Assembly: GCA_025449735.1 (NCBI GenBank)
Contig: JANWIV010000002.1
Span: forward strand, 62,001-126,000
DNA from: Candidatus Microgenomates bacterium
GTDB taxonomy: Bacteria > Patescibacteriota > Microgenomatia > UBA1406 > HO2-37-13b
DNA length: 64,000 nt
Direction: 5' to 3'
Below the pieces are notes generated by a model. That model did no database searches. It was not told where the DNA came from and saw nothing but the letters and a program-made list of their open reading frames with translations. The position numbers and the translations under genes are program-made. Numbering within the stretch: the stretch's first letter is position 1; each line of letters opens with the position of its first letter. Below, in pieces: positions 16,848-34,990 of the stretch.

Positions 16848-17327
16848 ATGAGACCAAGAGACAACAGATTTGAAGGTAATAAAGAGTTTTCTGAAGAGGT
16901 ACTGCTGATTCGTCGTGTATCCAAAAAAACGCCAGGCGGTAGTACCATTAATTTTTCGGCATTGGTGGTAATCGGTGATCGAAAAGGTCAAGTTGGTATT
17001 GGACTCGGGCGTGGGCTTGAAGTGCCTCAAGCGATTAGAAAGGCGATTCGTCGCGCTAAAAAAGAAATGTTTACCATTCCACTTATAAACGAGACGATTC
17101 CTCATGATATTAAGGTAAAATATAAATCAGCCAACATAATTCTAAAACCAGCCCCCAAAGGAGCCGGTCTTAAGGTCGGTAGTGTGGTTAGGTCAATATT
17201 AAGCGTAGCTGGAGTGAGAAATGCCTCTGGCAAAATTTTGCGTTCTCGTAATCAAATTACCAATGCCTATGGCGTCGTCAAGGGATTGAAGATGCTTCAG
17301 GCTAAAAAAAATAATAATCATGCTTAA
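16848..17327 (+). CDS. rpsE: 30S ribosomal protein S5
   Basis: S5 (159 residues) acts in decoding fidelity. The double-stranded RNA-binding-like domain (VVIGDRKGQVGIGLGRG) and the second domain with VRSILSVAGVRNA are present. rplO follows directly with an 8-nt overlap; there is no rpmD (L30) between them, a CPR trait. Confidence 0.98.
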   Translation: MRPRDNRFEGNKEFSEEVLLIRRVSKKTPGGSTINFSALVVIGDRKGQVGIGLGRGLEVPQAIRKAIRRAKKEMFTIPLINETIPHDIKVKYKSANIILKPAPKGAGLKVGSVVRSILSVAGVRNASGKILRSRNQITNAYGVVKGLKMLQAKKNNNHA

Positions 17328-17760
17328 TCAATTACAGAGTATATCAAGCAGAAAAGGAAAAAGAATCGGTCGCGGTGTCGGTAGCGGTGTTGGTGGCAAG
17401 TCAACCCGCGGTACCAAGCGTCACCAGGCGGCGCGTGAAAAAATTGCCTTGGGTTTTGAGGGTGGTCAAGGAAGAATCACCAAAAAATTTCCTTTGCTTC
17501 GTGGTAAACAGCGAAATAAACCAACAAGAATCGCTAATCTAGTAATTAAAACTGGCGCTCTAAATAAACTAAAGAAAGGTAGTAGCGTTAGCCTAGAGAC
17601 TTTGCTTGAGAATAAACTGGTGAGCGTAAAGGCGCGGACAAGAGGGGTCAAGATTGTGGCTGGGGGTGACCTTGAAGTTGATCTTATTATTAGTATTCCC
17701 ACCTCCCTTTCAGCAAAAGCGATCATTGAGGCAGCTGGGGGCAAGGTTAATCCAAAATGA
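17320..17760 (+). CDS. rplO: 50S ribosomal protein L15
   Basis: L15 (146 residues) with the Gly-rich N-terminus GRGVGSGVGGKSTRGTK and an internal FEGGQGRITKKFP. It overlaps both rpsE (8 nt) and secY (ATGA), suggesting tight translational coupling. Confidence 0.98.
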   Translation: MLNQLQSISSRKGKRIGRGVGSGVGGKSTRGTKRHQAAREKIALGFEGGQGRITKKFPLLRGKQRNKPTRIANLVIKTGALNKLKKGSSVSLETLLENKLVSVKARTRGVKIVAGGDLEVDLIISIPTSLSAKAIIEAAGGKVNPK

Positions 17761-27875: not shown

Positions 27876-27921
27876 GATATAGTTTGACCATATTGACGAG
27901 ACATAAATCTTAAGATAACAT
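27876..27921 (+). promoter_or_regulatory. Operator-promoter site 1 of the ketosynthase regulon
   Basis: GATATAG (27876-27882), 7 nt, ATATTGAC (27890-27897). The TTGACG inside is the -35 (27893-27898), 17-bp spacer, TAACAT -10 (27916-27921). Half-sites ATATAG and CCATAT form an imperfect inverted repeat spaced by 5 nt. The same arrangement stands before three other units in this region (28571, 33515, 34990). Confidence 0.8.
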
Positions 27922-27931
27922 TGGCAGGAGT

Positions 27932-28498
27932 ATGAATTTAATTCTTCTTGGCGGAAACAATATTGGGAACAAGAAATGGATACATGGTATGGAAAATCTT
28001 TTCAAACCTTACTTTGCTACCCACACCTTAAATTACAAGCATTGGGAAACCGGGGATGAATGGGTAAATCCTGATCGTGAGATGAAGCGATTGGCCGAGA
28101 TTTCTGAAAAAATGGGTGATTATATTATTTTTTCGCGTTCCGCAGGAACAATGATTACTTTAATGGGAATATCTAAAGGTTTAATTAATCCGAATCGTTG
28201 TATTTTTGTTGGCATTTCGATTAAATGGTCAGAATATTTTGACCCTGACTATGATAAGTGGCTTAAAAATTTTACGACGCCAAGCTTGATAATACAGAAA
28301 AGTAAAGATCCAGCAATTTCGACTGAAAAATTACAAAGTTTCCTAGCTGAAAAAAATTTTGCAAATTATAAACTAAAAGAACTTCCAGGTGAAGATCATT
28401 ATTATGGAAATATTGAGGAGCTACGTGATTTAACTATTGATTTTTGCAAACCAAAAAGCAAACATTCTTCTTATTACCATATGAGAAGCGCAATTTGA
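27932..28498 (+). CDS. Alpha/beta-hydrolase-fold protein
   Basis: A 188-residue single-domain protein with alpha/beta-hydrolase order: an opening strand LILLGGNN, a nucleophile elbow FSRSAGT (Gly replaced by Ser at the first position), an acid loop QKSKDPAIS and a late His in GEDHYYG. Thioesterase or esterase activity is plausible, which would suit release of acyl chains in the adjacent ketosynthase cluster, but this is inference from shared promoter control. AGGAG lies 1 nt before the ATG, too close to act as a Shine-Dalgarno; predicted transcription starts about 27928. Confidence 0.65.
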   Translation: MNLILLGGNNIGNKKWIHGMENLFKPYFATHTLNYKHWETGDEWVNPDREMKRLAEISEKMGDYIIFSRSAGTMITLMGISKGLINPNRCIFVGISIKWSEYFDPDYDKWLKNFTTPSLIIQKSKDPAISTEKLQSFLAEKNFANYKLKELPGEDHYYGNIEELRDLTIDFCKPKSKHSSYYHMRSAI

Positions 28499-28570
28499 TA
28501 CATTCGACTCAGTTTACAGGGAGTTTGTTAAACTGCTCACCACTAATCCTGAGCTCATGCCGAACGGATT
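28499..28570 (+). other. Intergenic region before the FabH-like gene
   Basis: No gene seen. Contains a small perfect hairpin AGTTT-GTT-AAACT near 28524-28536, with no T-run. Followed directly by operator-promoter site 2. Confidence 0.4.
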
Positions 28571-28616
28571 GATATAGATAAACTATATTGACGGAGTGAT
28601 TGTAAATCGTTAGTAT
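28571..28616 (+). promoter_or_regulatory. Operator-promoter site 2 of the ketosynthase regulon
   Basis: GATATAG (28571-28577), 7 nt, ATATTGAC (28585-28592). Here the inverted repeat is perfect: ATATAG-ATAAA-CTATAT. -35 TTGACG at 28588-28593, 17-bp spacer, -10 TAGTAT at 28611-28616; predicted start about 28623, 5 nt before the ATG of the FabH-like gene. Confidence 0.85.
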
Positions 28617-28627
28617 ATGGCAAATAT

Positions 28628-29938
28628 ATGCCAATAGAAAGGGCAACGCGTCCAGATTTAGAGACATTTTTAGTTCGCGATGAGGGAATTGATATCGAGC
28701 TTCCTTATAATGGAACTCTTCATCTTGAAAGTTATGAGAATTCTGAATATAGCGTCGGTGCTGTTGTTGGGCGTTGGGGCGAAAAATGGGAGCGCGACCA
28801 AATTGACAGCCAAATTAGAGCGCTTTATGGCTTGGATGAAAATGGTCGTGATCAAATCGTCGGTGACTCCAGCGGTTTCAAAAATGTTCATAGACCTCAA
28901 GCAGAACTCAGCTATAGAGAGCTTACTCACCAAAGTATTGCGGTGACCGGTTTACATGCCGCAGAAGTAATTAAATTAAATGGCTGGAAACCAAGTGATG
29001 TTGGCGGCTTATTCATTGGTGGTGACGCTCTACCGATTGGAAAGAAAGATAAAGGCCTATCACTCAAACGTCAGCTTTTAGCAGCAAGTGGACTACAGCA
29101 TCTTGACGAGTCTAAGCAAGTATCAATAAAAGCACTGGCCTGTAATTCTGGGGCTGATGAGCTGTTACATGCCCTGGTGAACCCTGATTTTAGAGGTCGA
29201 CCAGTTGTTATAGTTGGCATATCAACTCTTTTTAATGAATTGTCAAAAGCCAAATATCGAGCTCGACCACTGTCGCTAAACATTGACCCTTTTTCATTGC
29301 AAGTATTTTCATATGGTGCCGCTGCCTTTGGCATAATACCTGGTGAGACGATGTCAATCATTGAAGATCTCGGAGGTGAGCCGATTACTATCGTAGATGA
29401 AGAGTTTGATACCGAGCAATCACTCGCGGCAATTACCCCGTTTGACAGCCTGATTGATCACAGCGAACCATATCGAGTGAGGCAAGAAATTGCCGAAAAC
29501 GTCGTCATTGGAATGATGCCAAGGCCGAGGCATAAAGGGAGAGCGCTTGATATGAATTCATATTTGACTTCAAAACTGTTTCCAAAAACGACGACAAAGA
29601 GAGTGCTACAATTTTGGGATCAATTTCGCCAAGCTTATCCAGAGGGAAAATTTGATGAATTGATTATGCATCATGCGAGCTACGCAGTGGGTCAAAGTGT
29701 CCATGGGAAAATGATTAAAGCCGGTATAGACGTGCCTTTTTACTGGACTGTCGACGACGGCAATGCGCCGCCGGCAACAACGCTAACCCATTTAGCTCGT
29801 CGACTGCCATATCTGGGAAATAAAAATATCATGGTTGTCAGTTTTGGCGGGGGCGCTACCTATACCATTTTTGGTCTTCGATTAGGTCCAGATGGGGCGA
29901 GTCCGGATATTGTTAGCAGTTTAAAAGTTTCGATATAA
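28628..29938 (+). CDS. Ketoacyl synthase III-like enzyme (FabH/HMG-CoA-synthase fold)
   Basis: A thiolase-fold condensing enzyme of 436 residues, longer than typical FabH (about 320). The Cys-His-Asn triad is visible: Cys in LACNSGADELLHAL (about 171), His in MHHASYAVGQSVHGKM (about 347), Asn in DGNAPPATTLTHLA (about 378), followed by SFGGGATYTIFGL. It should load a starter acyl-CoA or form a C-C bond by decarboxylative condensation. First gene of a three-gene operon; the FabF-like gene follows after 3 nt. FabH, a hydroxymethylglutaryl-type or a polyketide starter enzyme all remain possible. Confidence 0.85.
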   Translation: MPIERATRPDLETFLVRDEGIDIELPYNGTLHLESYENSEYSVGAVVGRWGEKWERDQIDSQIRALYGLDENGRDQIVGDSSGFKNVHRPQAELSYRELTHQSIAVTGLHAAEVIKLNGWKPSDVGGLFIGGDALPIGKKDKGLSLKRQLLAASGLQHLDESKQVSIKALACNSGADELLHALVNPDFRGRPVVIVGISTLFNELSKAKYRARPLSLNIDPFSLQVFSYGAAAFGIIPGETMSIIEDLGGEPITIVDEEFDTEQSLAAITPFDSLIDHSEPYRVRQEIAENVVIGMMPRPRHKGRALDMNSYLTSKLFPKTTTKRVLQFWDQFRQAYPEGKFDELIMHHASYAVGQSVHGKMIKAGIDVPFYWTVDDGNAPPATTLTHLARRLPYLGNKNIMVVSFGGGATYTIFGLRLGPDGASPDIVSSLKVSI

Positions 29939-29941
29939 ATT

Positions 29942-31255
29942 ATGAGAAATCCTGAAGGAGAACAAAGAATAGTCGTAACCGGTATGGGGGCGGTTACTTC
30001 ACTTGGTCACAATTTAGATACTACTTGGGAAAATGTTAAAGCGGGTAAGACCGGATTTTCATATGTTGACCTTTCACCCTCGGACATTTCAGTAGTTGGA
30101 GAGGTCAAAGATTTTAATATGGAGCAATTGTTGCCGTCTGTTGTCGAGATTGGGGGTAAGCAATATCCAATTAGAAAAGTGATCAAAAGATTATCTCCAG
30201 CAGCTCAGTTTGCTATTTCTGCGTCATACGAAGCATTAAAAAATGCTGGAGTGGTGCAAAATGAATTTGAGCTTGATCCTGCGGTTAATCCTGAAAAATT
30301 CGGAATTACTGGGGCCTCTGGAATTGGAGGTGCCGAGGAAGTGGCCGAAATATATAAAAGATTAATTGAGGGCAAAACGGCTCATCCATCGAGTCTATTC
30401 ACTCTTCTAATTGAGAGAGGGGCGACTTTTCTAAGCATAATGGTTGATGCTAAGGGTCCAGTTGAGTCGGTATCGCTCGCTTGCGCTTCGGGGGGTCGAG
30501 CAATTAATAATGCGGTGAGGCTACTGCTTTTGGGCGATGCGGAGATAATGGTTGCTAATGCTGGTGAGCATGCGGCCAATCAAATTGCTGCTTCGCTTTT
30601 TACCAACACCGGGACGACTTCAAATGACGTTAGTACTACTGGTGCCGGGCTACCATTTGATAAAAACCGCAATGGTTTTGTACTCGGCGAAGGGGGCGGA
30701 GCGATGGTCATCGAAACTCTAGAGCATGCCTTAAGAAGGGGAGCGATCCCGGTAGCTGAGATCGTCGGTTATGCCGACACGGCCGATGCTTGGCATGAGT
30801 CTGATCCCAGTGGTAAAGGGGCGGTACGAGCAATTCAGAAGGCAAAAGACAAAAGTGGTATAGACTATCGTGGTAGAAATAAATTTATTAAAGCTCATGC
30901 TACTGGCACTATTAATGGGGATCCGGTTGAAGCAAGATCAATAAAGGAAGCTAATGAAGAAGAGGGACAGATTCTTATATGGGCGCCTAAAAGCCAGCTC
31001 GGTCATACGCTTGGTAATGCTGGGATGGTTGAGGCGGTTCTATCTATAAAGGCTCTTGAGGAAGGGGTGCTGCCGCCGACGGTGAATTTAAATGATCCTA
31101 TTGAAGAAATTGATGGCTTTGAATTTACGACTGAGAATGCAATACCGATGGAAAATGTCGATATTGCGATAAGCAATTCCTTTGGTTTTGGCGGTGGCAA
31201 CGCGGTGACAATTTTTCAATCCTACGATGGGCCACAGCCTAAGAGAGAAATATAA
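29942..31255 (+). CDS. Ketoacyl-ACP synthase II-like enzyme (FabF type)
   Basis: An elongating condensing enzyme of 437 residues. Catalytic residues are intact: Cys in LACASGG (about 180), His in KAHATGTINGDPVEA (about 318), Lys and His in KSQLGHTLGNAG (about 349 and 354), and the oxyanion/Phe-gate region NSFGFGGGNAVTIF. Substrates are probably acyl-ACP and malonyl-ACP, though no ACP or malonyltransferase gene is in this window. Cotranscribed with the FabH-like gene under operator 2. FabF of primary fatty acid synthesis or a KS of a polyene/polyketide pathway are both possible. Confidence 0.9.
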   Translation: MRNPEGEQRIVVTGMGAVTSLGHNLDTTWENVKAGKTGFSYVDLSPSDISVVGEVKDFNMEQLLPSVVEIGGKQYPIRKVIKRLSPAAQFAISASYEALKNAGVVQNEFELDPAVNPEKFGITGASGIGGAEEVAEIYKRLIEGKTAHPSSLFTLLIERGATFLSIMVDAKGPVESVSLACASGGRAINNAVRLLLLGDAEIMVANAGEHAANQIAASLFTNTGTTSNDVSTTGAGLPFDKNRNGFVLGEGGGAMVIETLEHALRRGAIPVAEIVGYADTADAWHESDPSGKGAVRAIQKAKDKSGIDYRGRNKFIKAHATGTINGDPVEARSIKEANEEEGQILIWAPKSQLGHTLGNAGMVEAVLSIKALEEGVLPPTVNLNDPIEEIDGFEFTTENAIPMENVDIAISNSFGFGGGNAVTIFQSYDGPQPKREI

Positions 31256-31261
31256 CTTTAG

Positions 31262-31729
31262 ATGACAGAATACGTAAGGTTTCATAATACGGAATTATCG
31301 TTTGCAGACGAGAATAATCAAGAAATAGATATCGGCACTCATCTTACTGTCAAAAAGAGTAAATCTCCTACTGTCCTTGAATTTGATTTGAATCGCAATC
31401 TCGATAGCATTGACGCGCTGACGATTTTTGGCTATACTCGCCAATTTCTAAGTAATTCAGAATCCGATTTTAGACTTTTAGCCACTCAACTTCAAAGTGA
31501 AGAATTTGAGCAGATCGTGGAGATTTTCGGAATAGGCGTTTTTCCTGAAGCGATGGGAAAAAGGTTTGGTTTTCAGTCAGAAATATATTCAACTAACCAA
31601 AAATTAATTGCTAAGTTTCTTAAACAAACGCCAAAAAAGTCGCTATTAGGTAGCGATCATAGTAAAAAAGCCTTGAGAAGATTTTCAATTAGTCGGGAAG
31701 ACTTTATTCAAAAATATTCAAATTCTTAA
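31262..31729 (+). CDS. Unknown protein of the ketosynthase operon, 155 aa
   Basis: I do not recognise this protein. It starts 6 nt after the FabF-like gene, so it is cotranscribed with the two ketosynthases. A beta-rich first 45 residues is followed by helices; a stretch NLDSIDALTIF loosely recalls the ACP DSL site, but the preceding helix of an ACP is absent and I do not call it one. Soluble, no signal peptide, basic C-terminus. It ends 2 bp from the convergent reductase-dehydratase gene. Confidence 0.75.
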   Translation: MTEYVRFHNTELSFADENNQEIDIGTHLTVKKSKSPTVLEFDLNRNLDSIDALTIFGYTRQFLSNSESDFRLLATQLQSEEFEQIVEIFGIGVFPEAMGKRFGFQSEIYSTNQKLIAKFLKQTPKKSLLGSDHSKKALRRFSISREDFIQKYSNS

Positions 31730-31731
31730 AA

Positions 31732-33462
31732 CTATTCAGAGAATGTTCCTTCAAGCATCGCAATTAGTCTTTCTTTCGGGACGACTTTACAATTAATTCC
31801 AGTAATAACTCCTCTCTTTTTTCCATCAATAAAAAATTCTACATTACCTTCAAACAGCGACTTTCCGGATTTTGTCATTAAGGCTCTAAATTCAATTGTA
31901 CTATCAACTGTTAGATCGCTTAATTGATCAAAAAAATCGACATCCTCAATGCTTTTTAAAAGTGGCAATCGATCGCTCATTTCCCTTGATTGAGAATAAA
32001 GCAGGCCTAGAGTTTGCGCGGCGGCTTCAATAATCTGTTCGCTCGGAAATAACCTTGTTTCGTCTGCAACTATCCATTCACCTACCATCGTTTCAATTTG
32101 AGCAATTTCACTTTTTTCGGTTGTCAATATGGTTTCCTCAGCATAGAAGGACCCTTTAAGATCTCCGGCATCAGATTTAATTTTAAGTGTGTCTCCGGGC
32201 CGAACCACATTTACAAATTGTATTGGATCAAAAATTCCTCCTAATGCGACTCTTTTATTCTGGTCACGATATCCCCTTCTAATGAACGAAGCCATTTCCA
32301 TTTTAGCGCCAGCAATTAGAGAAACGGCAATTTGATCGACGCCGCGCAATACGCTAGGGAGACCGGAAGCGGCGTCAAAATGGCCGGCAACATGGTTATC
32401 TGTGATCTTCACTTGTGCTATATACTCATCAATAAGCTCAATTTCATCATCAGTAAATGTTGGCTTCATTCGATCCAGCGTAACTTTCATTGTGGCGACG
32501 GCCTCATTTTCACCGAAATTCATAAAATCATCAAGTAATAATTTATTTGGACCATACATATAAAGTATTTCTGCAATCTGCGGTCGGTCTAGACCGCTCA
32601 CCCCAACAAATACATTTTGTCGGGCTTCCCATGGATCTAAGGCGAGATTAAGTGCTGAAACGGCGACGTCGACCCGCATTGGCGTCCGATGCTCACCATT
32701 GGTGTTGCTTTTGTCATGAAGTTGAGCGATTTGTTCGTCGCTCATTTTTCGCATCATTAAATTCATCGCACTTGTATCAATGACTGGTCCTGATATTAAA
32801 GAAACTCGTTTAATTCCCACATCAGAAAGCGCTTCAGACATTTTGTCAAGCCGCATATCGCCCTCATGCTTGGCATGCGCGGTTCTTTGATAACGATCAA
32901 TTGGCATGGGAAGCGAAAGATATTTAGATGGGGTGCTGGGGATGGTGACAAATAAGCCACGATCAAACAGCGTCGTCTCACCAAACATTTGCTCATAAAG
33001 GAGAGCTGTTTCAACCGGAGCCTTTACATTCAAATTTTCTGCCTCCTCATCGGTGCCACGAATTCCACCCGCGGGAAGGAAAAAAATCCCATCAAGTCGA
33101 CCATAGGTTTCTTTTATATGCTGAAATAAAGTCGCTCTGCTCTCACTGTCGGTAATATCAGCCTGCAAGGCGACAATTTCTCCCCCCAATGCAAGCTTGC
33201 TTGCCCATTGCAGTTCTTTTATTTGTGCCTGGGTATCTTCGTTATCGTGAATATGAGGAATGATAACGGTGGCTTCTTTCATTGCAAGTGCTAATGTGAT
33301 TGCGCCACCGATGCTACCTTCAATTCTATTACCACCCGGGACTAAATATACCTTGTTTTTAAGCTCAGCGCCCTCTTCAATACATGATCTAAGTTGATCG
33401 ACTAGTTCAAGTCTTGCTTTTCGATAGTCCAATTCCTTTGTTTGAGGTCTTTCAGTTGTCAT
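31732..33462 (-). CDS. SDR reductase - hot-dog dehydratase fusion
   Basis: A 576-residue two-domain enzyme. Residues about 35-260 are a Rossmann short-chain-dehydrogenase-like domain: nucleotide loop PGGNRIEGSIGGAI, LQADITD, and FLPAGGI at the NAG position. The canonical YxxxK pair is not obvious; the nearest is RYQRTAHAK. Residues about 350-460 resemble the FabZ/FabA hot-dog fold: a His in NHVAGHFD followed by LPSVLRGVDQ. Together they would reduce and dehydrate a 3-ketoacyl group. The ATG at 33462 follows a -10 TATTCT by 7 nt; an upstream TTG in frame is rejected. No enoyl reductase accompanies it here. Confidence 0.72.
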   Translation of the reverse strand: MTTERPQTKELDYRKARLELVDQLRSCIEEGAELKNKVYLVPGGNRIEGSIGGAITLALAMKEATVIIPHIHDNEDTQAQIKELQWASKLALGGEIVALQADITDSESRATLFQHIKETYGRLDGIFFLPAGGIRGTDEEAENLNVKAPVETALLYEQMFGETTLFDRGLFVTIPSTPSKYLSLPMPIDRYQRTAHAKHEGDMRLDKMSEALSDVGIKRVSLISGPVIDTSAMNLMMRKMSDEQIAQLHDKSNTNGEHRTPMRVDVAVSALNLALDPWEARQNVFVGVSGLDRPQIAEILYMYGPNKLLLDDFMNFGENEAVATMKVTLDRMKPTFTDDEIELIDEYIAQVKITDNHVAGHFDAASGLPSVLRGVDQIAVSLIAGAKMEMASFIRRGYRDQNKRVALGGIFDPIQFVNVVRPGDTLKIKSDAGDLKGSFYAEETILTTEKSEIAQIETMVGEWIVADETRLFPSEQIIEAAAQTLGLLYSQSREMSDRLPLLKSIEDVDFFDQLSDLTVDSTIEFRALMTKSGKSLFEGNVEFFIDGKKRGVITGINCKVVPKERLIAMLEGTFSE

Positions 33463-33469
33463 GATTAAT

Positions 33470-33515
33470 AGAATATCACTGGTTTTAAAAGTGATCAATA
33501 TCGCTTATCTATATC
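33470..33515 (-). promoter_or_regulatory. Operator-promoter site 3 of the ketosynthase regulon
   Basis: On the minus strand GATATAG (complement of 33509-33515), 7 nt, ATATTGAT (to 33494). -35 TTGATC is the complement of 33493-33498, 17-bp spacer, -10 TATTCT complement of 33470-33475; start codon 7 nt further. Inverted half-sites ATATAG and CGATAT, one mismatch from perfect. Confidence 0.8.
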
Positions 33516-33531
33516 AAAATAAACCAATTGT

Positions 33532-34929
33532 TTATAAATTGGCGAGGCTATATATTTCAGGTAGGTATTCAGAATCATCATTTTTTCTGTCATAAAATGA
33601 AAGCCAGGCAGCAGGCACGGTATATTTCCAATTTGGCCATTGATCTTTGACAAAAGGGACAGGTATTTTTCGAAGCTGAAGTTGATCTTGTGTCAAATAA
33701 TCGGCAATTTTCTCTTCTGATAAATTTTTAATTCCCTTTTGTTGAGCAATAATTTCCAGAAGCTCTTTCGCATCAATGCTTCCAGCCATGAACTCCGGAT
33801 TAAATGCCAACTCTTGATGATTTTCTGTCATCAGATAAAGTAGACTTCGCCAACCATCAGCTAATGTGCCGCGAGGATTTTTTGCTGACCAATAGTCGAA
33901 ATAATTTTTCCCCCCGTGTTTTGTCGATCTTTGTCGGGTAGCAATAAATGGAGAAAAAGACGGACCGAGCACATTGCTGGCGCCAAATCGACGCGCTTTA
34001 TCGATGATACCAAATAAAGCGGCTCCCACAATTTCGTCGCCCTCGATCTTGCTGTCTTTGCCGACGCTCGTTATAATGATAGTTTTGCCGGCCAAATCAT
34101 TATTGGTCTGCATACGGACACGACGATCTAACAGTTCCTGCCAGGTAATTCGCGACAATTCGACATAATTCTCATCCTCAGGATTATCGGTGACTATTTT
34201 TTCAACTGCAAAAAAACTACCATATCCAACAACTTCCCTATCATTACGGTCAAGTATTGCAAGCCATCCTTTTCCCTCCTCAACTCCGCGTTGATTTATG
34301 GGAGCGCCTGGTTTTATCAAAAGGCGTTGTCTTCGCAATGAATCAAAACCCCAATGCTGATTGACGATTGACTCAATTTTTGGCCATTGCCGCTCATTTG
34401 GGTCGACGGCGTCGAATTTTTTCTCAAGCTGAAAGCGAGCTTCCCGTTTCAACCCATCTGGTATCATTCTTACCATCAATTCCGCCCTTCCATGAAGGCG
34501 TCTGGCTGCTTGTTCATCCTCGCCATTATCAATCATTTCTTTTATAAAATCCTCTTTATCCTTTAAATGGTCAGTGGTTTCACCGATCGGTTGAAGTACT
34601 CGACTGATACGTCTGAGCGAGGATTTATTATCGCTCTCCTTATCCCTATGAAAGAGAGAGGAAGCAAAATTGTGAGTGAATTTGGTTATTGGTGAATCAG
34701 GGTGGGTTTTCTCTGCGGCTTCCTCGATCGCCATAGCTGAATTTTGTTCATCGGATGGAATTTCGGTTATTTGTTTTCGAGACTGCCAAAAGTCGTAACT
34801 TTTCTTGAGACCATAGGAGGCGCTCAAAGCCGCAACCGCAATAAGACCAGTGTAGACGGCATTTTTAGCGCGATGATGCTTATCAACTTCATCAGACGTG
34901 TCATAAGGTGAGCTTGAATCTTTTTCCAT
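33532..34929 (-). CDS. Membrane-anchored GNAT-like protein
   Basis: A 465-residue protein with an N-terminal cytoplasmic stretch, one membrane segment (about residues 27-43), a charged helical linker, and a C-terminal domain from about residue 200. That domain has WLAILDRNDREVVGYGSF, then VELSRITW, then DEIVGAALFGIIDKARRFGA, the strand-strand-helix order of GNAT acyltransferases, but the acyl-CoA loop (Q/RxxGxG/A) is not clean, so the call is tentative. It is controlled by the same operator as the ketosynthases, suggesting it uses or modifies their acyl product at the membrane. Confidence 0.5.
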   Translation of the reverse strand: MEKDSSSPYDTSDEVDKHHRAKNAVYTGLIAVAALSASYGLKKSYDFWQSRKQITEIPSDEQNSAMAIEEAAEKTHPDSPITKFTHNFASSLFHRDKESDNKSSLRRISRVLQPIGETTDHLKDKEDFIKEMIDNGEDEQAARRLHGRAELMVRMIPDGLKREARFQLEKKFDAVDPNERQWPKIESIVNQHWGFDSLRRQRLLIKPGAPINQRGVEEGKGWLAILDRNDREVVGYGSFFAVEKIVTDNPEDENYVELSRITWQELLDRRVRMQTNNDLAGKTIIITSVGKDSKIEGDEIVGAALFGIIDKARRFGASNVLGPSFSPFIATRQRSTKHGGKNYFDYWSAKNPRGTLADGWRSLLYLMTENHQELAFNPEFMAGSIDAKELLEIIAQQKGIKNLSEEKIADYLTQDQLQLRKIPVPFVKDQWPNWKYTVPAAWLSFYDRKNDDSEYLPEIYSLANL

Positions 34930-34944
34930 ATTAGTGTGCAGGCA

Positions 34945-34990
34945 AAGATATACTATTTATCTAGGCAAGTCAATATGATCAAACTATATC
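34945..34990 (-). promoter_or_regulatory. Operator-promoter site 4 of the ketosynthase regulon
   Basis: Minus strand GATATAG (complement of 34984-34990), 7 nt, ATATTGAC (to 34969). -35 TTGACT complement of 34968-34973, 17-bp spacer, -10 TATCTT complement of 34945-34950, 15 nt before the ATG of the GNAT-like gene. Shares GATATAGTTTGAxCATATTGAC with site 1 at all but one position. It fills the gap behind the VanW gene. Confidence 0.8.

Follow-up and report, generated by a model that had tools for sequence, protein, structure and literature searches.

Gene regulation in CPR bacteria is little understood, and most of these bacteria cannot be grown. The described systems closest to the locus considered here are the class II activator sites of the CRP/FNR and LuxR type, which overlap the -35 box, the SOS network reportedly found in Patescibacteria (Sanchez-Osuna 2017, Environ Microbiol 19:3465, as cited in PMC8565304), and the regulons of type II fatty acid synthase (fab) genes. 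The locus belongs to a Candidatus Microgenomates bacterium and lies in a 64-kb stretch of its genome, referred to as the window, that was analysed as a whole. It contains four promoters with a common 22-bp element, arranged around a cluster of ketosynthase and related genes; to our knowledge, this element is unlike the FapR, FabT or FadR boxes. At 16848-17760 of the window, the genes for S5 and L15 are direct neighbours, in that order, and lack an intervening L30 gene, which fits CPR bacteria.

Four promoters and their genes

Exact matches to the motif GATATAG-N7-ATATTGAY number four in the window and four across the 822-kb genome. Sites 1 (GATATAGTTTGACCATATTGAC, 27876-27897) and 2 (GATATAGATAAACTATATTGAC, 28571-28592) are on the plus strand, and sites 3 (GATATAGATAAGCGATATTGAT, 33494-33515) and 4 (GATATAGTTTGATCATATTGAC, 34969-34990) are on the minus strand. 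Counts, strands and positions agree with the initial annotation, as does its remark that no such arrangement stands before other genes of the window. The genome-wide scan that it had proposed, run with the motif pattern, gave four copies with no mismatch, none with one and five with two; position 9 is likewise invariant (T) across the four sites. Most of the weak matches inspected in the genome are intragenic, and none has a TAnnnT -10 at 17 bp ahead of a start codon. Under an order-3 Markov model of the same genome, the expected number of exact copies is 0.014 for the whole genome and 1e-4 for a 7.1-kb stretch. The site recurs in separate promoters and is absent elsewhere in the genome, as in a regulon controlled by a single factor. 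Pairwise identity of the 40-bp flanks on either side of the elements is at background (18-43%), so the four elements are not recently duplicated promoters.

At all four sites TTGAY serves as the -35 and is followed, after a spacer of exactly 17 bp, by a TAnnnT -10, just as had been described. The hexamers are TTGACG (27893-27898) and TAACAT (27916-27921) at site 1, TTGACG (28588-28593) and TAGTAT (28611-28616) at site 2, TTGATC (33498-33493) and TATTCT (33475-33470) at site 3, and TTGACT (34973-34968) and TATCTT (34950-34945) at site 4. These are promoters of the sigma70 type, with TTGACA-like and TATAAT-like hexamers spaced within the range of 16-18 bp near a gene start. The element stands 53-61 bp from the start codon and, if transcription is assumed to begin 7 bases past the -10, at about 27928, 28623, 33463 and 34938, leaders of about 4, 5, 1 and 9 nt precede the start codons at 27932, 28628, 33462 and 34929. 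Other promoters of the window likewise place a good -10 merely 4-9 nt ahead of the start codon, and leaderless or near-leaderless transcripts therefore look normal here. The four -10s each have two mismatches to TATAAT, versus 0-1 at the other near-start promoters of the window; for this reason the weak -10s, together with a site near -43 beside the -35, suggest an activator.

The imperfect inverted repeat ATATAG-N5-CNATAT that had been seen in the element is indeed perfect at 28571. Elsewhere it is weaker than claimed: the arms differ at 1, 0, 1 and 2 of 6 positions in sites 1 to 4, the right arm reads TCATAT at 34990, and that arm is not conserved in the sites of other families. With only site 2 perfect, the four sites do not have conserved symmetric half-sites, and the repeat is best regarded as weak and imperfect.

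The first unit (27932..28498, plus strand) encodes a small alpha/beta-hydrolase-like protein of 188 aa, its fold assigned by eye from FSRSAG, which has no Pfam match. The second unit, also on the plus strand, begins with a KAS III (FabH)-like gene (28628..29938), for which 28628 is the in-frame start; Cys172, His348 and Asn379 are invariant in the protein family, and a profile of the family retrieves KAS III structures (E 5e-14). It continues with a FabF/KAS II-like ketosynthase (29942..31255), whose catalytic Cys-His-His is visible in the sequence, and with a 155-aa protein (31262..31729) that has no Pfam or NCBIfam family match and whose gene ends 2 bp from a convergent gene. The ketosynthases have intact catalytic residues, as in a type II fatty acid synthase. 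The third unit (31732..33462, minus strand) encodes an SDR fused to a FabZ-like hotdog domain; its start is corrected to the ATG at 33462, because the TTG at 33498 of the mechanical open reading frame is the first base of the gene's own -35. Homologs of this fusion enzyme adjoin FabF genes in two other genomes (G353 and G337). The fourth unit (33532..34929, minus strand) encodes a protein of 465 aa whose N-terminal part has a hydrophobic helix. The label "GNAT-like" in the initial annotation is unconfirmed, as the protein has no Pfam match and its single-sequence structure model reaches a pLDDT of 36; the models of this and the KAS III-like protein (pLDDT 36-37) are unusable. The genes of the cluster are mutually compatible. 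Since the acyl carrier protein family (PF00550) has no match in the assembly, they cannot yet be taken for an ordinary fatty acid synthase.

The element and the ketosynthases in other genomes

The KAS III-like gene and the cluster are absent from all seven other genomes of the family, no relative close enough for orthologous promoters is present in the collections searched, and the KAS III-like protein has no close relatives in GTDB or in viral contigs. Among 373 genomes of the class (this one included), a KAS III-like match occurs in 10 and a FabF-like match in 21. The original motif, at up to one mismatch, has no copy in these ketosynthase neighbourhoods. The homologs are distant (only 22-40% identical), and their own ketosynthase promoters are without the element. 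One member of the family (G170) has two one-mismatch copies, both intragenic. A CRP/FNR gene of one subfamily adjoins the ketosynthase cluster in four genomes of the class (G261, G337, G071 and G300), and TTGTAA-N6-TTACAA-like dyads are found near three of these. The cluster of G300 (L062:6894-14724) is a fuller one, with a CRP/FNR gene, KAS III, FabF, a FabH-like gene, a hotdog gene and two SDRs. FabF-type ketosynthase genes are also found next to dinB (four genomes) and, in one more genome, with uvrB on one side and lexA on the other (L057, L059, L061, L063 and L064).

A close form of the element, TGATATAGWTTGWYC-N3-TTGAC, occurs in other families of the class ahead of lexA, dinB, DUF3276 and small-RNA-like genes. 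This recurrence means that the element is not a ketosynthase-specific operator; the term "ketosynthase regulon" holds for the present genome and does not extend to the other families. Scanning the class turned up a single additional exact copy, which matches site 1 at 22 of 22 positions and lies in a promoter that precedes a DUF3276 gene (G234). In three more genomes (G073, G169 and G300), the DUF3276 orthologs have GATATAGTT nearby, again with a 10-bp gap before TTGAC; G169 has a second promoter, placed downstream of the element and ahead of the gene. The element precedes lexA in four genomes (G296, G353, G365 and G208), and the LexA domains were checked in three of them. The relaxed form TGATNYANNTTGWYC-N3-TTGAY adds four sites within ketosynthase neighbourhoods, which belong to dinB promoters (G118, G129) and small-RNA-like promoters (G325, G337). 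In G159 and G215 the element is followed by short transcripts that carry hairpins and intrinsic terminators. Structured short transcripts of this kind lie at L056:9421 (plus), L057:4523 (minus), L206:4045 (plus) and L211:4847 (plus); those of L056 and L057 have an ACCUGU/ACAGGU closing stem in common and no Rfam match.

Across 45 genomes of another family of the class, a scan of gap lengths gave 14 matches at a gap of 10 against an average of 7.6 (P 0.02). With the element restricted to GATATAG[AT]TT, the same genomes gave 10 at gap 10 against 0.9 per other gap (P 4e-8, an indicative value, as the restriction was picked after the matches had been seen). Sites 2 and 3 of the present genome match the class-wide consensus only in TGATATAG plus T9. 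Over GTDB contigs, the exact element plus a -10 has 11 matches, treated as chance because they are scattered singles in unrelated phyla; viral contigs contain none. These observations permit the tentative reading, to which we give somewhat less than an even chance, that TGATNYANNTTGWYC, locked 3 bp in front of a TTGAC -35, is an undescribed promoter module of several families of the class with a conserved reader factor and rewired targets. These targets would be lexA, dinB, DUF3276 genes and small RNAs in other families, versus the complete ketosynthase cluster here.

The factor that reads the element

Because the element is private to the cluster, locked in position and placed in four promoters that are not duplicates, it is best explained by one factor that acts in trans from a gene elsewhere in the genome and probably co-regulates all four units through this shared cis-element. 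Control of the four units by one factor, for which the initial annotation saw strong evidence, thus stands as the best reading of the sequence, with the binding and the singleness of the factor inferred; its statement that the regulator is not encoded in the cluster is consistent with the open reading frames of the window. The factor would recognize TGATATAG-W-T-N5, followed by ATA and the -35 TTGAY, with the core of the element at about -53 to -39 and a fixed 3 bp upstream of TTGAY. It would act as an activator of the alpha/beta-hydrolase gene, the KAS III-KAS II-155 aa operon, the reductase-dehydratase gene and the gene for the 465-aa protein, which would be transcribed as leaderless or near-leaderless mRNAs. 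The cluster would then be one case in which the class-wide element is put to use, with targets that vary from family to family.

The alternative that survives best, although it is unlikely, is that the polymerase itself reads the element as an upstream promoter element (alpha-CTD, UP-like), with no dedicated transcription factor. The fixed distance to the -35 fits this reading, as does the presence of the element ahead of small-RNA-like and lexA promoters, which would profit from strength. However, an element of this kind should be common at strong promoters, whereas it is confined to four promoters of the genome, all within one cluster, is lacking from the ribosomal operon of the window and, in another family, is present far less than once per genome.

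A role of the element as a LexA (SOS) operator, with damage-inducible expression of the cluster, is very improbable. This possibility arises from the element ahead of lexA and dinB in other families and from the five genomes in which ketosynthase homologs neighbour dinB or are flanked by uvrB and lexA. Yet no LexA is detectable in the present genome: tblastn with two LexA proteins of the class gave no significant match in an assembly that is 88.7% complete and was read nearly in full. The uvrB and dinB genes of this genome are without the element, and the dinB operon promoter (L220:11500-11560) has a palindrome, AGTGAAC-N4-GTTCACT, directly past the -35; it resembles a Gram-positive-type LexA box, though no LexA was found. 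What lexA, dinB and most DUF3276 promoters of other genomes have in common is a different repeat, the direct repeat ATTYGGG-N4-ATTYGGG (period 11) between the -35 and the -10 (L150-L167, L061:4470-4600, L208-L210, L213, L063, L064, L057 and L059), which occurs also without GATATAG and is the probable SOS box of the class. LexA was accordingly rejected as the reader. The SOS reading thus appears already largely refuted for this genome; the link to SOS genes that exists in other families finds no support here.

The sole CRP/FNR-type protein of the genome (C3:325191-325826), which is also its only PF00027 protein, is a most improbable reader. Its strong homologs occur in 8 of 372 other genomes of the class, among them G234 with its exact element, and this co-occurrence made it a strong candidate, as did the CRP/FNR genes that adjoin other ketosynthase clusters. 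It was rejected over what appears to be a conserved operator of its own: TGTTC-N6-GAACA, with 0-1 mismatch, stands before or after the gene in 8 of 9 genomes and has the geometry expected for CRP, unlike GATATAG. At the element, no even palindrome fitting the protein's own site was found. The subfamily is marked by a TR-x-R-x-TE recognition helix, and with TGTTC-N6-GAACA flanking the gene (L129:1405-2043; L131-L138) it is a probable autoregulated regulon in eight genomes of the class.

Coincidence, or the recent duplication of a single promoter, might be suspected in an AT-rich sequence in which each half of the motif is common alone; it is refuted by the copy number relative to expectation (4 versus 0.014) and by flanks no more alike than background.

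For the single dedicated factor, the candidates that remain after a rough census of helix-turn-helix (HTH) proteins in the genome, pre-filtered with a home-made HTH matrix and not exhaustive, are two proteins of the TrpR family and several small HTH proteins, of the HTH_3/HTH_31 and HTH_17 types. The palindromes that precede the genes of the TrpR-family paralogs (CTACTAGTAG and ATGTTTAAACAT) are unlike the element. TetR and MarR_2 proteins were rejected, as neither was found in the genome.

Comparison with known systems

With the four-site regulon and the class-wide element, a CPR transcription factor becomes open to experiment, as do leaderless transcription in CPR bacteria and the question of when such reduced cells activate a pathway of lipid- or polyketide-like type. 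Among known systems, the SOS network of Patescibacteria belongs to the same broad group of organisms, and the element stands ahead of lexA and dinB in related families; the network differs in that the present genome is without a detected LexA and another repeat is common to those promoters. The fab regulons are comparable in placing KAS III-like, KAS II, reductase and dehydratase genes under common control, but an acyl carrier protein family match is lacking here. Class II activator sites differ from the element in its odd, weak dyad, which has no TGTGA or TTGAT half-site pair; they resemble it in a centre near -41 to -43, in abutting a sigma70 -35, and in the poor -10 that follows.
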